Source of the DNA: an uncultured archaeon
GTDB taxonomy: Archaea; Halobacteriota; Methanosarcinia; Methanosarcinales; Methanoperedenaceae
Reading direction: 5' to 3'
Assembly: GCA_902386205.1 (NCBI GenBank)
Contig: CABMIH010000057.1
Span: forward strand, 1-64,000
Length of the DNA: 64,000 nt
In this document: one piece after another, positions 47,065 through 52,260 of the stretch
Layout of the letters: each line of letters begins with the position of its first letter
How positions within the stretch are numbered: position 1 is the first letter of the stretch
Notes under the pieces: model-generated
Databases searched by the model: none
What the model was told of the DNA's origin: nothing
What the model saw: only the letters and a program-made list of their open reading frames with translations
Program-made: the position numbers and the translations under genes

Positions 47065-47373
47065 ATGCCAGTCTCCAATTTTCTTGAAAAAATCTTTGGG
47101 AAAACCGCACAACTCATAGTTTTAGAATACCTGCTCAATAATAAAGACACAGATACTTATCTTTCAGGGATCGCTGCTGAGACAGGTCTTTCGCATTCCA
47201 CGGTGTCAAGAGTGATCGAGCCGCTCCTGGATATGCATATTATAAAAGAGACGCCGCTTGGCAAGCAGATACGCGTTTTTAAATTAAACCAGGAAAATGA
47301 ACTAACAAAGTATTTACTTAAAATCAATAGTGATTTAAAAAACATGTTGAATCATGGCGGTGATAAGCGATGA
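47065..47373 (+). CDS. Winged-HTH regulator
   Basis: 102 residues with a winged-helix core (LSGIAAETGLSHSTVSRVIEPLLDMHIIKE) and a basic helix and C-terminal dimer helix. Similar to small archaeal ArsR/MarR-like proteins. First gene of a four-gene signalling unit: it overlaps the next gene by 4 bases. Its promoter has the two 22-base palindromic repeats, so it may autoregulate. Confidence 0.75.
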   Translation: MPVSNFLEKIFGKTAQLIVLEYLLNNKDTDTYLSGIAAETGLSHSTVSRVIEPLLDMHIIKETPLGKQIRVFKLNQENELTKYLLKINSDLKNMLNHGGDKR

Positions 47374-47907: not shown

Positions 47908-49716
47908 GTGAGCATCAGGTCCGAACTGATATTCTTTTTTCTGATAATATCAGTGATACCACTGTCCCTTGTGGTTTATTTATCATATGAATACAGCAAA
48001 GAACCCATCAGTGATTCTGTTATTGCAAACCTGCGCGGCGCGACCGAGAATACCGGGAATGCAATTGATAACTGGATGGATGCAAGAAAAGACGATATCC
48101 GTGTAATTTCCCAGTCCAGGATAGTCAATTGCACCGAAAAAAAACAGCTTTACGAATACCTGGGAACATTTGAAAACGAATACCAGGGAGTGTACAGGGA
48201 GTTCTTTATACTCGATATGAGTGGGAATATAACATTCTCGACCCTTTCCCGCACTGGAAACGAAGGCAAAGCACCTTATTTTACTGAAGCTGCAAAAGGA
48301 AAAATGTATATATCCGATGTATCTCTCTCAAAATCCACAAATTCCCCGGAACTTATTATTACAAACCCTATTAAAAAGAATGGTACGACAGAAGGAATCC
48401 TTGCTGCAAGAGTAAGCATGGAAAACCTTTACAGGATAATTGAAAGTATAGACATCGGGAGATCCGGGAAGGTATTTATAGTCAATAATAAAGGGGATAT
48501 AATCTTCCAGGAGAACAGATCCGGGATCCTGCTTACAAACATCAAGGATAATTTCGCTGTAAAAGAAGTTACGTACGAAAAGAACGGGATAGCCGAATAT
48601 GTAAATAACGAGGGTGAAAAAGTAGTAGCTTCCTATTACTGGTTACCGCTGTACAGGTGGGGACTTGTCGTTGAAAAGAATATAGATGAGGCCTATGCGG
48701 GATTTCTGACCCTTGGCCGACAGATGATACTCATATCGTCTTTTGCGGTTACAGGGGTCGTTTTTCTTGCCATTATAATTTCAAGAAGACTTACACAACC
48801 CATAAAGTCCCTTGAAGACGGGGCTCTTGGTCTTGTTGAGGGGAACTTCAAACCCATCCCCGTATCCTCAAGAAATGAGATCGGCAAACTGACAGATATA
48901 TTCAACGAGATGGCTTCCGAACTCCTGGAGATCAGAAAAAAACTTGAAGCAAAAATCGAAATTGCGAATAAAGACCTGGAAGAAAAAAACAGGGAACTTA
49001 TTGTAGCCAATGAAGAGTTAAAAAAACTCGATGAACTAAAATCCGATTTTATCTCTCTTGTTTCGCACGAATTAAAAACTCCCCTGTCAGCCGTCAGGAT
49101 ATCTGCAGAATTTCTCGAATCCCAGGGTAATGTGGATACCGACATAAAGAAAGAACTGCTGCAGATAATAATCCGGAATATCGACCGACAGACGCGCCTG
49201 ATCAACGATATCCTTGACCTTTCAAAGATCGAAGCCGGGAAACTGGAACTTCAATTGAACCACACGGACATCAATGAAATTTCGAAAGTGGCTCTTGAAA
49301 CTATCGGCCAGCTCGCTTTGAAAAAAAATATCACAGTTTCAGTGAACATCCCGGAGGAGCTTTCTCCTGTAATGGCAGATAGGGATAAGCTTATTATTGT
49401 GTTGAATAATCTATTCGAGAACGCATTGAAATTCACCCCGGCTGGAGGAAATATAATTTTATCTGCAAAAGATGACGGGGACAGTATAGTGGTCAGTATG
49501 AAAGATACGGGTATCGGGATAGAGAAAGAAAAACTGGATAAGATATTTGATAAATTTTACCAGGTGGATAGCTCGTCGAGGAGGAAAATAGGCGGCTGCG
49601 GACTTGGGCTTTCAATATCAAGCGGGATCATAAAAGCCCACGGGAGTGAAATCCAAGTGGAAAGCGAACCTGGAAAAGGAAGTTCATTCAGTTTCAGATT
49701 GAAAAAGGCAGGATGA
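47908..49716 (+). CDS. Membrane-bound sensor histidine kinase (Cache, HAMP, HisKA)
   Basis: 602 residues. TM1 at about 6-26; a large extracellular double-Cache-like sensor (SRTGNEGKAPYFTEAAKGK, RSGKVFIVNNKGDI); TM2 at about 272-292; HAMP to about 345; coiled coil; HisKA with phosphorylated His387 in SLVSHELKTPLS; HATPase with NNLFENALKF, DTGIGI and GGCGLGLSI. GTG start with GGAGAG upstream. The last 4 bases overlap the next gene, so the signal is probably ligand binding of the neighbouring substrate-binding-like protein. Confidence 0.9.
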   Translation: MSIRSELIFFFLIISVIPLSLVVYLSYEYSKEPISDSVIANLRGATENTGNAIDNWMDARKDDIRVISQSRIVNCTEKKQLYEYLGTFENEYQGVYREFFILDMSGNITFSTLSRTGNEGKAPYFTEAAKGKMYISDVSLSKSTNSPELIITNPIKKNGTTEGILAARVSMENLYRIIESIDIGRSGKVFIVNNKGDIIFQENRSGILLTNIKDNFAVKEVTYEKNGIAEYVNNEGEKVVASYYWLPLYRWGLVVEKNIDEAYAGFLTLGRQMILISSFAVTGVVFLAIIISRRLTQPIKSLEDGALGLVEGNFKPIPVSSRNEIGKLTDIFNEMASELLEIRKKLEAKIEIANKDLEEKNRELIVANEELKKLDELKSDFISLVSHELKTPLSAVRISAEFLESQGNVDTDIKKELLQIIIRNIDRQTRLINDILDLSKIEAGKLELQLNHTDINEISKVALETIGQLALKKNITVSVNIPEELSPVMADRDKLIIVLNNLFENALKFTPAGGNIILSAKDDGDSIVVSMKDTGIGIEKEKLDKIFDKFYQVDSSSRRKIGGCGLGLSISSGIIKAHGSEIQVESEPGKGSSFSFRLKKAG

Positions 49717-50759
49717 TGAGGAAATATTTTTACATACTTATATTAGTTCTAATACTCCTATCCGCCGGGTTTATCGGATACGAGAGATCACGCGTCCAAA
49801 AGTCGATTTATGTTGTTTCCATGACTGCAAATGAGATGTCGGCGGCCCTGGCCAACGGCACGATCGATGGTTTTATCATATGGGAACCTTTCCCGGCAAA
49901 AGCTGAATATGAAGGTATTGGCAGGTATCTTGTTAATTCCAAAGACGCTTGGGAAAACCATCCTTCATGCGACCTGGCAATCTCGGATGACATAACAGAT
50001 GAAGACACGATCAAAGCCCTTGTCTGGGTGCATGTAAAAGGAACAAGATTTATCAACGATCCGGCAAACAGGGAGAAAGTCATTGGATACGCCCAGGAAT
50101 TCTCAGGGCTTGACAGGGACACGGCGACCAAGGCGATCGATAATACAATGTATATTGAATTCCCTGACCTGAACCAGACTAAAAAAGGATTTGAGATACT
50201 GGATACAGCAGGCGCGTTCAAAAATCCCGTAACTTCAATGGGATATAACAGTGTTGATGATTTCCTGTCCGATATTTTCGTTGATAAATATTACAAAGAG
50301 ATCAGGAATAAACTGGAAGAGGACCCCGGGTGGACGCCTCCAGCAGTCAACGGCAGCCTCAGGTTCGGATATATTGAGGGCAATATACATTATCTCGGGA
50401 TGTACATAGCCCGGAAAGAGGGTTATTTTGATAAAGTCGGACTTACACCAGGAAAAAATATCCAGTTCACGGGTTACCGAAACGGCCGGGCAATGACAGA
50501 CGCTTTCAAGCACAGGGAACTGGACGTGGCAAACCTGGGCACGGTGGTGCTGTTAAGGTACAGGATAAACGATAATGGAAGGATTCATATAATAAACGGG
50601 GTGAATACGGGCGGGTCGGCACTTGTGGTGAGGAAGGATTCTAATATAAAGTCCCTTGATGACTTCAACGGCCGCAAGATCGCCACAACAGGTTTTGGCT
50701 CATGCCAGGACACAATAATGAGAGAGATGTTTGAGGGTTTTGAGATAAAGACGATTTGA
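49713..50759 (+). CDS. Membrane-anchored NMT1/nitrate-type substrate-binding protein with swapped lobes
   Basis: 348 residues: an N-terminal TM anchor, then the C-lobe of a nitrate/taurine-type (NMT1/THI5-like) binding protein (SMTANEMSAALANGTIDGFIIWEPF, NHPSCDLAISDD), then the N-lobe (LRFGYIEGNIHYLGMYIARKEGYF, KIATTGFGSCQDTIMREMF), ending at EGFEIKTI. In ordinary family members the order is N-lobe then C-lobe, and here the end of the N-lobe would join the start of the C-lobe without a gap. This may be a circular permutation or the leftover of two fused domains. No ABC transporter genes are adjacent; it overlaps the kinase gene. Confidence 0.7.
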   Translation: MMRKYFYILILVLILLSAGFIGYERSRVQKSIYVVSMTANEMSAALANGTIDGFIIWEPFPAKAEYEGIGRYLVNSKDAWENHPSCDLAISDDITDEDTIKALVWVHVKGTRFINDPANREKVIGYAQEFSGLDRDTATKAIDNTMYIEFPDLNQTKKGFEILDTAGAFKNPVTSMGYNSVDDFLSDIFVDKYYKEIRNKLEEDPGWTPPAVNGSLRFGYIEGNIHYLGMYIARKEGYFDKVGLTPGKNIQFTGYRNGRAMTDAFKHRELDVANLGTVVLLRYRINDNGRIHIINGVNTGGSALVVRKDSNIKSLDDFNGRKIATTGFGSCQDTIMREMFEGFEIKTI

Positions 50760-50779
50760 TCTATTCGGATTTCCGGATT

Positions 50780-52138
50780 CTATCCCTGATCAAGCAGCAG
50801 GAACAGCCATGCTGGAATGAACCGGATATCGATATCATCGACCTTGCGCGTTTCCATCATATCTCTGGTTACAATGACCCCTTTCTTGACCCCGAATTTT
50901 TTGCAGAATTTCAAGACTGAGGCTGCGTCGGAATTGGTTATATAGTGCTGGTATTTCACTTCGATGGGAAGAATGTTTTCTTTCTCTTTCAGAACGATAT
51001 CCACTTCGTCTTTTTGCGGCGTTCTCCAGAATGAGGTCTTTCCAAGATTTCCCGCTATCGCAGCTTCCACCAGATGTCCTGCAACTTCTGTATTAAGGAT
51101 ATCAAAAGGATAGTCAAGTAAAGCGATAACGATTGAACTGTGAGCAGAATACTGCTTCTTGCTTGCTCTTACCTGCCTTGCGATACTTGCCGTGAAATTA
51201 TAAGCAACATTTACCAGGAATGATCTCTCAAGCAAATTCACATAATTCGATACGAGGTTCCTGTTGATTTTCAATATACTCGAAAGGTTCAGTATTTCAA
51301 ATAATCTTGCATTGCTGTTTGCCAGAAGCCTGAAAAGCTCGTAAATAATTTTTTCATCTTCACCTGCAAGCCTTGCTGTATCAACTATTGCCTTTTCTAT
51401 TACTGATTCTTTTATGTATTTTTTTATAAATTCTTCATTATTTATATCAAGCAATTCAGGAAATGCCCCTTTTAACAGGTAACTTTCAAATAATTCATTG
51501 TATCTCTCTTTTTTCCCGGCGAATTTGAGATCATATTCCCTGATGAAAGCCTCCTTTGATGATGAAAATTCAATTATGGATGAAACTGGTGATTTCTCTC
51601 CTTTCAGACTATCATCAAACATGAAATATCTCGCAAATTCCTTGAATGTCAGGATAGGCATATGAAATGTCAGTATCCTTCCGGCAAGTGTTTCTTTAAA
51701 TTTGTTCAACTCCAGGCTTGCTGAACCTGTAATGAAGAACTTCAGGTTTTCTTCAGAATCATAATACGTTTTCAGCAGGTCTGGCCAGTTTGGAAGCTTC
51801 TGCACTTCATCCAGAAACAGGTATCTCATTTTGTCTTTATCAGAGAATTCAAGAAAATAATTTATTAATTCTTCTACAATGTTATACTTTTGAAAATCAA
51901 TGTCATCCAGGGAAATATAACACAGGTTATTTTTCAGTGCTTTCAATTTCTGCATCATCTGCTTCATCAAAATTGTCTTGCCAACCCTTCTCAGGCCGAT
52001 CACAGCTATTATTTGTTTATATTCAACATATCTTATGAGAGTATTGATAATATCTCTCTCAAAATCCGGCAGTTTCACTTCTTTATCGACCCACCACGGA
52101 TTCTGTTTTACTAATAAAGCCCGATGTCTTTCTTCCAT
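50780..52138 (-). CDS. AAA+ ATPase with DUF4143 (AAA_14) domain
   Basis: 452 residues. Walker A GLRRVGKTILM near residue 47, Walker B RYLFLDEVQKL, a DUF4143 wHTH-like region and an archaeal-type nuclease-like C-terminus (ILPIEVKYQHY). Common in archaea, often mobile and present in many copies; function unknown. It converges tightly on the SBP-like gene. The start is the ATG 52138; the upstream palindrome is described separately. Confidence 0.8.
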   Translation of the reverse strand: MEERHRALLVKQNPWWVDKEVKLPDFERDIINTLIRYVEYKQIIAVIGLRRVGKTILMKQMMQKLKALKNNLCYISLDDIDFQKYNIVEELINYFLEFSDKDKMRYLFLDEVQKLPNWPDLLKTYYDSEENLKFFITGSASLELNKFKETLAGRILTFHMPILTFKEFARYFMFDDSLKGEKSPVSSIIEFSSSKEAFIREYDLKFAGKKERYNELFESYLLKGAFPELLDINNEEFIKKYIKESVIEKAIVDTARLAGEDEKIIYELFRLLANSNARLFEILNLSSILKINRNLVSNYVNLLERSFLVNVAYNFTASIARQVRASKKQYSAHSSIVIALLDYPFDILNTEVAGHLVEAAIAGNLGKTSFWRTPQKDEVDIVLKEKENILPIEVKYQHYITNSDAASVLKFCKKFGVKKGVIVTRDMMETRKVDDIDIRFIPAWLFLLLDQG

Positions 52139-52173
52139 ATATTCAGTAGATTAGTTTTCATATTAATAATACT

Positions 52174-52192
52174 ATGCATAAAATTTATGCAT
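52174..52192. promoter_or_regulatory. Palindrome between ATPase and polB
   Basis: ATGCATAAA-A-TTTATGCAT is a perfect 9-bp inverted repeat with a single central base. A further TGCATAG lies about 22 bases downstream, pairing with CTATGCA at the left edge. It lies in the divergent intergenic gap, 36 bases before the ATPase start, a likely operator. No regulator is assigned. Confidence 0.5.
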
Positions 52193-52260
52193 AAAATTAA
52201 TATTGTGCATAGTACACATATTAAGAAACCTATAAACCCATTAAACCAAATCTAACCATC

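Follow-up and report, generated by a model that had tools for sequence, protein, structure and literature searches.

The window analysed here, a stretch of 64,000 nucleotides from an uncultured archaeon of the Methanoperedenaceae, carries an operon encoding, in this order, a winged-helix regulator, a response regulator, a membrane histidine kinase and a membrane-anchored substrate-binding protein (hereafter SBP) of the NMT1/SsuA type (Table 1). The reading frame that the initial annotation had given for the SBP (49713-50759) and its overlap with the Cache kinase gene were both found to be correct, the stop codon of the kinase gene and the start codon of the SBP gene sharing the bases ATGA. The response regulator has its AsnC-type helix-turn-helix (HTH) domain ahead of the receiver, which is the reverse of the common receiver-then-output order. 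Genes for an importer permease or an importer ATPase are not found adjacent to the SBP gene. Further downstream, the stretch 50760-52220 contains an AAA_14/DUF4143 ATPase gene lying between the SBP gene and a DNA polymerase gene; in the near relative MnB_21 (L003) the SBP and the DNA polymerase genes are about 50 bases apart and the stretch is absent, a difference that suggests either an insertion or a loss.

Table 1. Features of the operon and of its substrate-binding protein, with positions counted from the first nucleotide of the window.
Feature	Position	Strand	Basis
Winged-helix (MarR-like) regulator, small, 102 aa; opens the conserved operon	47065..47373	+	ORF; weak MarR_2 match, E 1.5e-4, below cut-off; an orthologue occupies the same place in most kinase-linked operons whose flank is long enough
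Response regulator, 170 aa	47370..47882	+	Pfam: HTH_AsnC-type 5.2e-9 (residues 4-42), Response_reg 1.6e-30 (residues 50-162)
Membrane histidine kinase, 602 aa	47908..49716	+	Pfam: dCache_1 6.5e-25, HAMP 5.3e-9, HisKA 7.8e-19, HATPase_c 2.9e-28
Overlap of kinase stop and SBP start, ATGA, 4 nt	49713..49716	+	Sequence
SBP gene: circularly permuted NMT1/SsuA-type, 348 aa, membrane-anchored	49713..50759	+	ORF, Pfam, alignment, rotation scores, model, standard-order HMM
N-terminal anchor helix, residues 2-26, no lipobox cysteine	49716..49790	+	Model helix H2-26; N-termini compared
First segment, residues 26-199, equivalent of the C-terminal half in standard-order SBPs (standard HMM 165-333)	49788..50309	+	HMM; Pfam NMT1_2
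Linker, residues 200-214, from the former C-terminus to the former N-terminus	50310..50354	+	Gap between HMM matches; confidently modelled
Second segment, residues 215-347, equivalent of the N-terminal half in standard-order SBPs (standard HMM 32-160)	50355..50753	+	HMM; Pfam NMT1

The SBP scores well above the cut-offs of both Pfam families concerned, with 79.7 bits for PF13379 (cut-off 24.7) and 43.2 bits for PF09084 (cut-off 20.5). Positions 151-248 of the NMT1_2 profile fall on its residues 29-124 and positions 2-116 of the NMT1 profile on residues 225-344, so that the C-terminal half stands ahead of the N-terminal half. A phmmer search against the PDB sequences aligned residues 39-125 with residues 201-289 of CmpA, and a second, weak match was obtained between residues 214-246 and residues 36-67 of CmpA. 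A further profile of 344 positions, for which standard-order relatives alone were used (nine of the same archaeal family and three from bacterial plasmids), matched the first and the second segments of the SBP (Table 1) with iE values of 9e-29 and 3e-21, respectively. The reversed lobe order proposed in the initial annotation is confirmed by these matches.

The two halves of the SBP tile the standard-order HMM once, with a gap of 4 positions and no overlap. Two swapped matches were likewise obtained for all the permuted homologues tested (54/54), the breakpoint lying at about the same place in each, while the 12 standard-order proteins, which are the same 12 that built the HMM, gave one colinear match each. 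Rotation of seven standard relatives raised their local alignment scores with the SBP from 142-176 to 191-269, with shuffled controls scoring at most 43. Tiling and rotation scores together show that a rotated standard protein matches the SBP over its full length, with nothing missing and nothing repeated. The SaoX profile of NCBIfam, which is independent of the above, agrees, as its positions 4-125 are placed in the second half of the permuted protein of L113 and its positions 129-228 in the first half of that of L106. These results, along with a single-chain model of high confidence and a one-to-one correspondence of secondary-structure elements after rotation (see below), support the circular permutation put forward in the initial annotation; the gene encodes a complete NMT1/SsuA-type SBP. 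In the permuted chain a short linker connects the old N- and C-termini, and the opening lies just past the first helix of lobe 2.

The AlphaFold2 model of the SBP, computed with an alignment of 54 sequences, is one compact protein (pLDDT 94.8, pTM 0.87), and for L052, a relative of standard order belonging to the same family, the model has a pLDDT of 90.0 and a pTM of 0.85. If the elements of L052 are read starting at E162, through to the last one, and continued with those between E31 and H142-153, they give the order found in the SBP from E31-36 to H331-339; the SBP has in addition a short C-terminal strand at residues 344-347. Duplication of a strand at the junction was considered on account of this modelled strand, yet the profile matches do not overlap and a duplication is not claimed. 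Judged solely from the model confidence and the order of the elements, a single bilobed domain is strongly suggested. A Foldseek search of the PDB with the L052 model retrieved TauA, SsuA, CmpA and NrtA with TMt values up to 0.87 (1,361 hits at E<=0.001), and the permuted model retrieved 37 hits at the same threshold, with OpuAC first and TM values of about 0.3-0.46. Such low values are expected, since a sequential search here meets a permuted chain. Sequential structure searches thereby miss the kinship with SsuA and NrtA, and permuted SBPs are easily misread as truncated proteins.

An intact copy of the SBP at no less than 58% identity (58-93%), with the same order and termini, is present in 24 of the 34 genomes of the family, and one further genome has a copy with an in-frame stop; the swapped order, whose conservation the initial annotation had proposed to examine, is therefore kept in other Methanoperedens genomes. 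The 33 proteins aligned share their start and end points; the mean column identity is 69%, and 65 columns are invariant. A pattern scan of genome contigs returned Methanoperedens only, the named carriers being Candidatus Methanoperedens MnB_21 (93%) and STD1_19 (68%), and the window is thereby assigned to Methanoperedens or its vicinity, as the initial annotation had supposed. Relatives of the SBP were not found in the viral contigs scanned, and the three bacterial plasmid relatives examined (from Methylocystis, Agrobacterium and Deinococcus) are all of standard order; the distribution beyond the Halobacteriota was covered by the plasmids and the one scan of genome contigs.

The association with the kinase is similarly conserved. 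A gene of the same kinase family lies immediately upstream of the SBP gene, a few bases apart, in 31 of the 34 copies of the kinase-linked type, L051, L044 and L046 being the kinase-less copies. The 4-nt overlap was found at 10 of the 14 junctions measured, with gaps of 2-7 nt at the other four, and the gene order HTH, HTH-receiver, dCache kinase and SBP is retained in most operons with enough flank. Distances among the kinases are correlated with those among the SBPs (r = 0.78), a value nearly reached by the response regulator (0.72), and this correlation denotes co-inheritance rather than contact and may only reflect common descent. The genome of the window also carries a second permuted SBP (L051; G000:C71, 172-5419), located directly after HTH and response-regulator genes, the kinase gene being absent. 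A MacB/FtsX-type ABC system lies divergent from this second SBP, and L048 likewise has a MacB/FtsX-type gene next to its operon.

A distant, colinear family of permuted proteins, with 27-32% identity to the SBP of the window, was identified in most Methanoperedenaceae genomes. These proteins carry a lipobox-like GC. In 11 of the 12 loci inspected (one of the 11 being truncated where its contig stops), genes for products of about 268 and 252 amino acids come next; in L037 these are BPD_transp_1 and ABC_tran. In the rest of the Halobacteriota, permuted homologues with E < 1e-50 occur in 24 genomes from six other family-level groups; the next gene encodes a permease in all 19 loci inspected outside the family, and an ATPase gene comes after it in 18 of them. 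Across the Halobacteriota, then, the distant permuted relatives are the lipoprotein SBPs of ABC importers. A kinase-linked form was also found in another family of the same order (L121, genome G417).

A tree of 50 proteins unites the kinase-linked genes and the three copies lacking a kinase in a single clade (100/100), which stands next to the ABC-linked groups and is separated from them by a long stem branch; the root, provided by rotated standard proteins on long branches, is tentative. L121 is placed inside the Methanoperedens clade with moderate support, and this placement suggests a transfer. The permutation did not originate together with the link to the kinase: it is a property of a broader family of ABC-importer SBPs, and the kinase-linked branch appears to have come from these. 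The history is most simply read as a single permutation in an importer SBP of the Halobacteriota with later recruitment to signalling, in the course of which one copy would have lost the lipobox, retained the N-terminal helix to anchor it in the membrane and become translationally coupled to the kinase gene.

The neighbourhoods of the ABC-linked permuted SBP operons are varied. Methyltransferase-type genes (URO-D and B12-binding, in L117 also RACo and MtrH) adjoin these operons in L117, L119 and L122, hinting at a methylated substrate in those archaea, and a gene of the IF-2B family (possibly MtnA-like) follows them in L104, L114 and L118. As the former set is found in some genomes and the latter gene in others, the context fixes no single ligand. 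The published methoxydotrophy cluster of Archaeoglobus, which contains similar enzymes, lists MFS transporters and not an importer with an ABC-linked permuted SBP.

The membrane anchor predicted in the initial annotation is borne out by the hydrophobic N-terminal helix, and a lipobox is absent in nearly all the kinase-linked copies. At thirty positions, including W57-E58-P59, H83-P84, N298, G301 and Q332, the kinase-linked and the ABC-linked groups have the same residue with a conservation of 90% or more in each, so that the fold is retained, and probably a ligand site too. Position 300 is a glutamate in the ABC-linked group and a glycine in the kinase-linked group, and at position 85 the latter has mostly serine or glutamate for the first cysteine of the HPCC motif. 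The two changes suggest a different ligand or affinity, and the glycine at position 300 may have changed or weakened the pocket. The ABC-linked permuted SBPs and the standard-order proteins of L052, L065, L136, L137 and L138 contain two vicinal cysteines within a conserved (H/N)PCC or HACC motif, and the first of these cysteines is lost in nearly all of the kinase-linked group. By analogy with the NMT1/SsuA/NrtA-type proteins, the SBP of the window is likely to bind a ligand of the same class, which includes small anions, sulfonates and thiamine-precursor-like molecules.

The initial annotation had allowed for a protein truncated at both ends with close homologues of standard order, and for a frameshift hiding a normal second half. 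Neither was found, the frame of the SBP being intact and its close homologues having the same swapped order and the same ends. Decay into a truncated or frameshifted, non-functional remnant does affect other copies, which are visibly broken or partial with in-frame stops (G009:C226, G004:C43 and G013:C12), but the homologues with identical order and ends, conserved over their full length with intact frames and many invariant columns, rule it out for the window and leave it virtually no probability. It is also unlikely that two half-genes of tandem ordinary SBPs were fused after the loss of their outer halves, with the product acting as a sensor or as a swapped dimer: the halves tile one profile a single time, a single chain is modelled with high confidence and all the members break at about the same place. 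Tandem SBP genes do exist in these archaea, L118 having a short standard-order SBP beside the permuted one, and permutation by duplication and fusion of tandem-gene halves cannot be separated at the level of the product, which is the same for both.

The permuted SBP could also still serve an ABC importer encoded elsewhere, its adjacency to the kinase giving co-regulation only, as its relatives are importer SBPs and the ABC-linked type is present in most Methanoperedens genomes as well. This is distinctly unlikely in view of the absence of the lipobox and the replacement of one conserved loop glutamate in the kinase-linked group, the long stem branch between the two groups, and the failure of a profile search to find a cognate-type permease in the genome of the window (95.3% complete) or in G001, when the same profile finds one in six relatives; at 95.3% completeness it is possible that a permease was missed in the genome of the window. 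The only other NMT1_2 protein detected in this genome by profile search is unanchored and of standard order, and a neighbouring gene resembles, by eye, that for a radical-SAM enzyme. The conservation of the operon and the missing cognate permease together favour a dedicated sensor over a transporter part, as the initial annotation had suspected, a role that is supported and not proven; the dCache domain of the kinase may sense by itself. The reading preferred here, to which we assign a probability of about 0.78, is that the SBP is a circularly permuted importer SBP co-opted as the membrane-tethered ligand sensor of an HTH-response regulator-histidine kinase-SBP system. Its two lobes would shut around a small ligand outside the cytoplasm; once loaded, the tethered protein would touch the dCache sensor domain of the kinase and change the kinase output.

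The NMT1/SsuA/NrtA-type class II SBPs (PF13379, PF09084; TauA, SsuA, NrtA, CmpA) are homologous to the SBP of the window in both halves and share the same set of elements once rotated, from which the latter differs in its swapped halves, its N-terminal membrane helix and the lack of an importer alongside. A natural circular permutation of a membrane-tethered importer SBP is known from TpMglB-2 (Tp0684) of Treponema pallidum, a permuted class I SBP for which the designation 'Type Ic' was proposed; its authors noted that Type Ic-like permuted proteins tend to be tethered and suggested a second role in chemotaxis (PMC4990184). TpMglB-2, however, is a bacterial protein with a class I sugar-binding fold, another breakpoint and no tie to a histidine kinase. 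Among the class II SBPs, the glycine-betaine-binding proteins OpuAC and ProX form a published circular-permutation family (PMC2395249), and OpuAC structures (2b4m, 2b4l) head the list of hits obtained with the permuted model, at low TM; OpuAC and ProX belong to another sequence family, though, and are transport proteins. Experimental precedent for sensing by an SBP and a kinase comes from AioX of the AioX-AioS-AioR system (PMC5908839), and CuaD of the CuaD-CuaS-CuaR system has been found by experiment to bind the kinase CuaS (PMC10384115). Both systems have an SBP gene beside kinase and regulator genes, and their SBPs are sensors and not transporters, but they are bacterial, with SBPs of other families that are not described as permuted, and the contact of CuaD with CuaS is experimental whereas that of the pair in the window is putative. 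An sbp gene beside a kinase gene is no guarantee of a functional link: no interaction was seen for the neighbouring pairs of P. aeruginosa that have been tested (PMC11113362).

In the literature searched, which left subscription papers mostly outside its scope, neither a description of a permuted NMT1/SsuA-type SBP nor a report of a permuted SBP in a two-component operon was found. Permuted SBPs and SBP-kinase systems are each already known, and it is their combination that is apparently unreported. On balance, we lean towards regarding these proteins as an undescribed permuted subclass of the NMT1-type class II SBPs, with a single origin in importers of the Halobacteriota, that was recruited in Methanoperedens, with a membrane helix in place of the lipid anchor, as a dedicated tethered kinase sensor, and as the first permuted SBP to signal with a histidine kinase. 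Natural permutations that can be traced through many genomes with the standard, the permuted-importer and the permuted-sensor forms are uncommon, and such a set of three forms allows asking whether the moved chain termini alter the docking of an SBP on a permease or a kinase. Methanoperedens is a genus with nitrate- and metal-dependent methane oxidation, and the present analysis points to an environmental sensor conserved across it.
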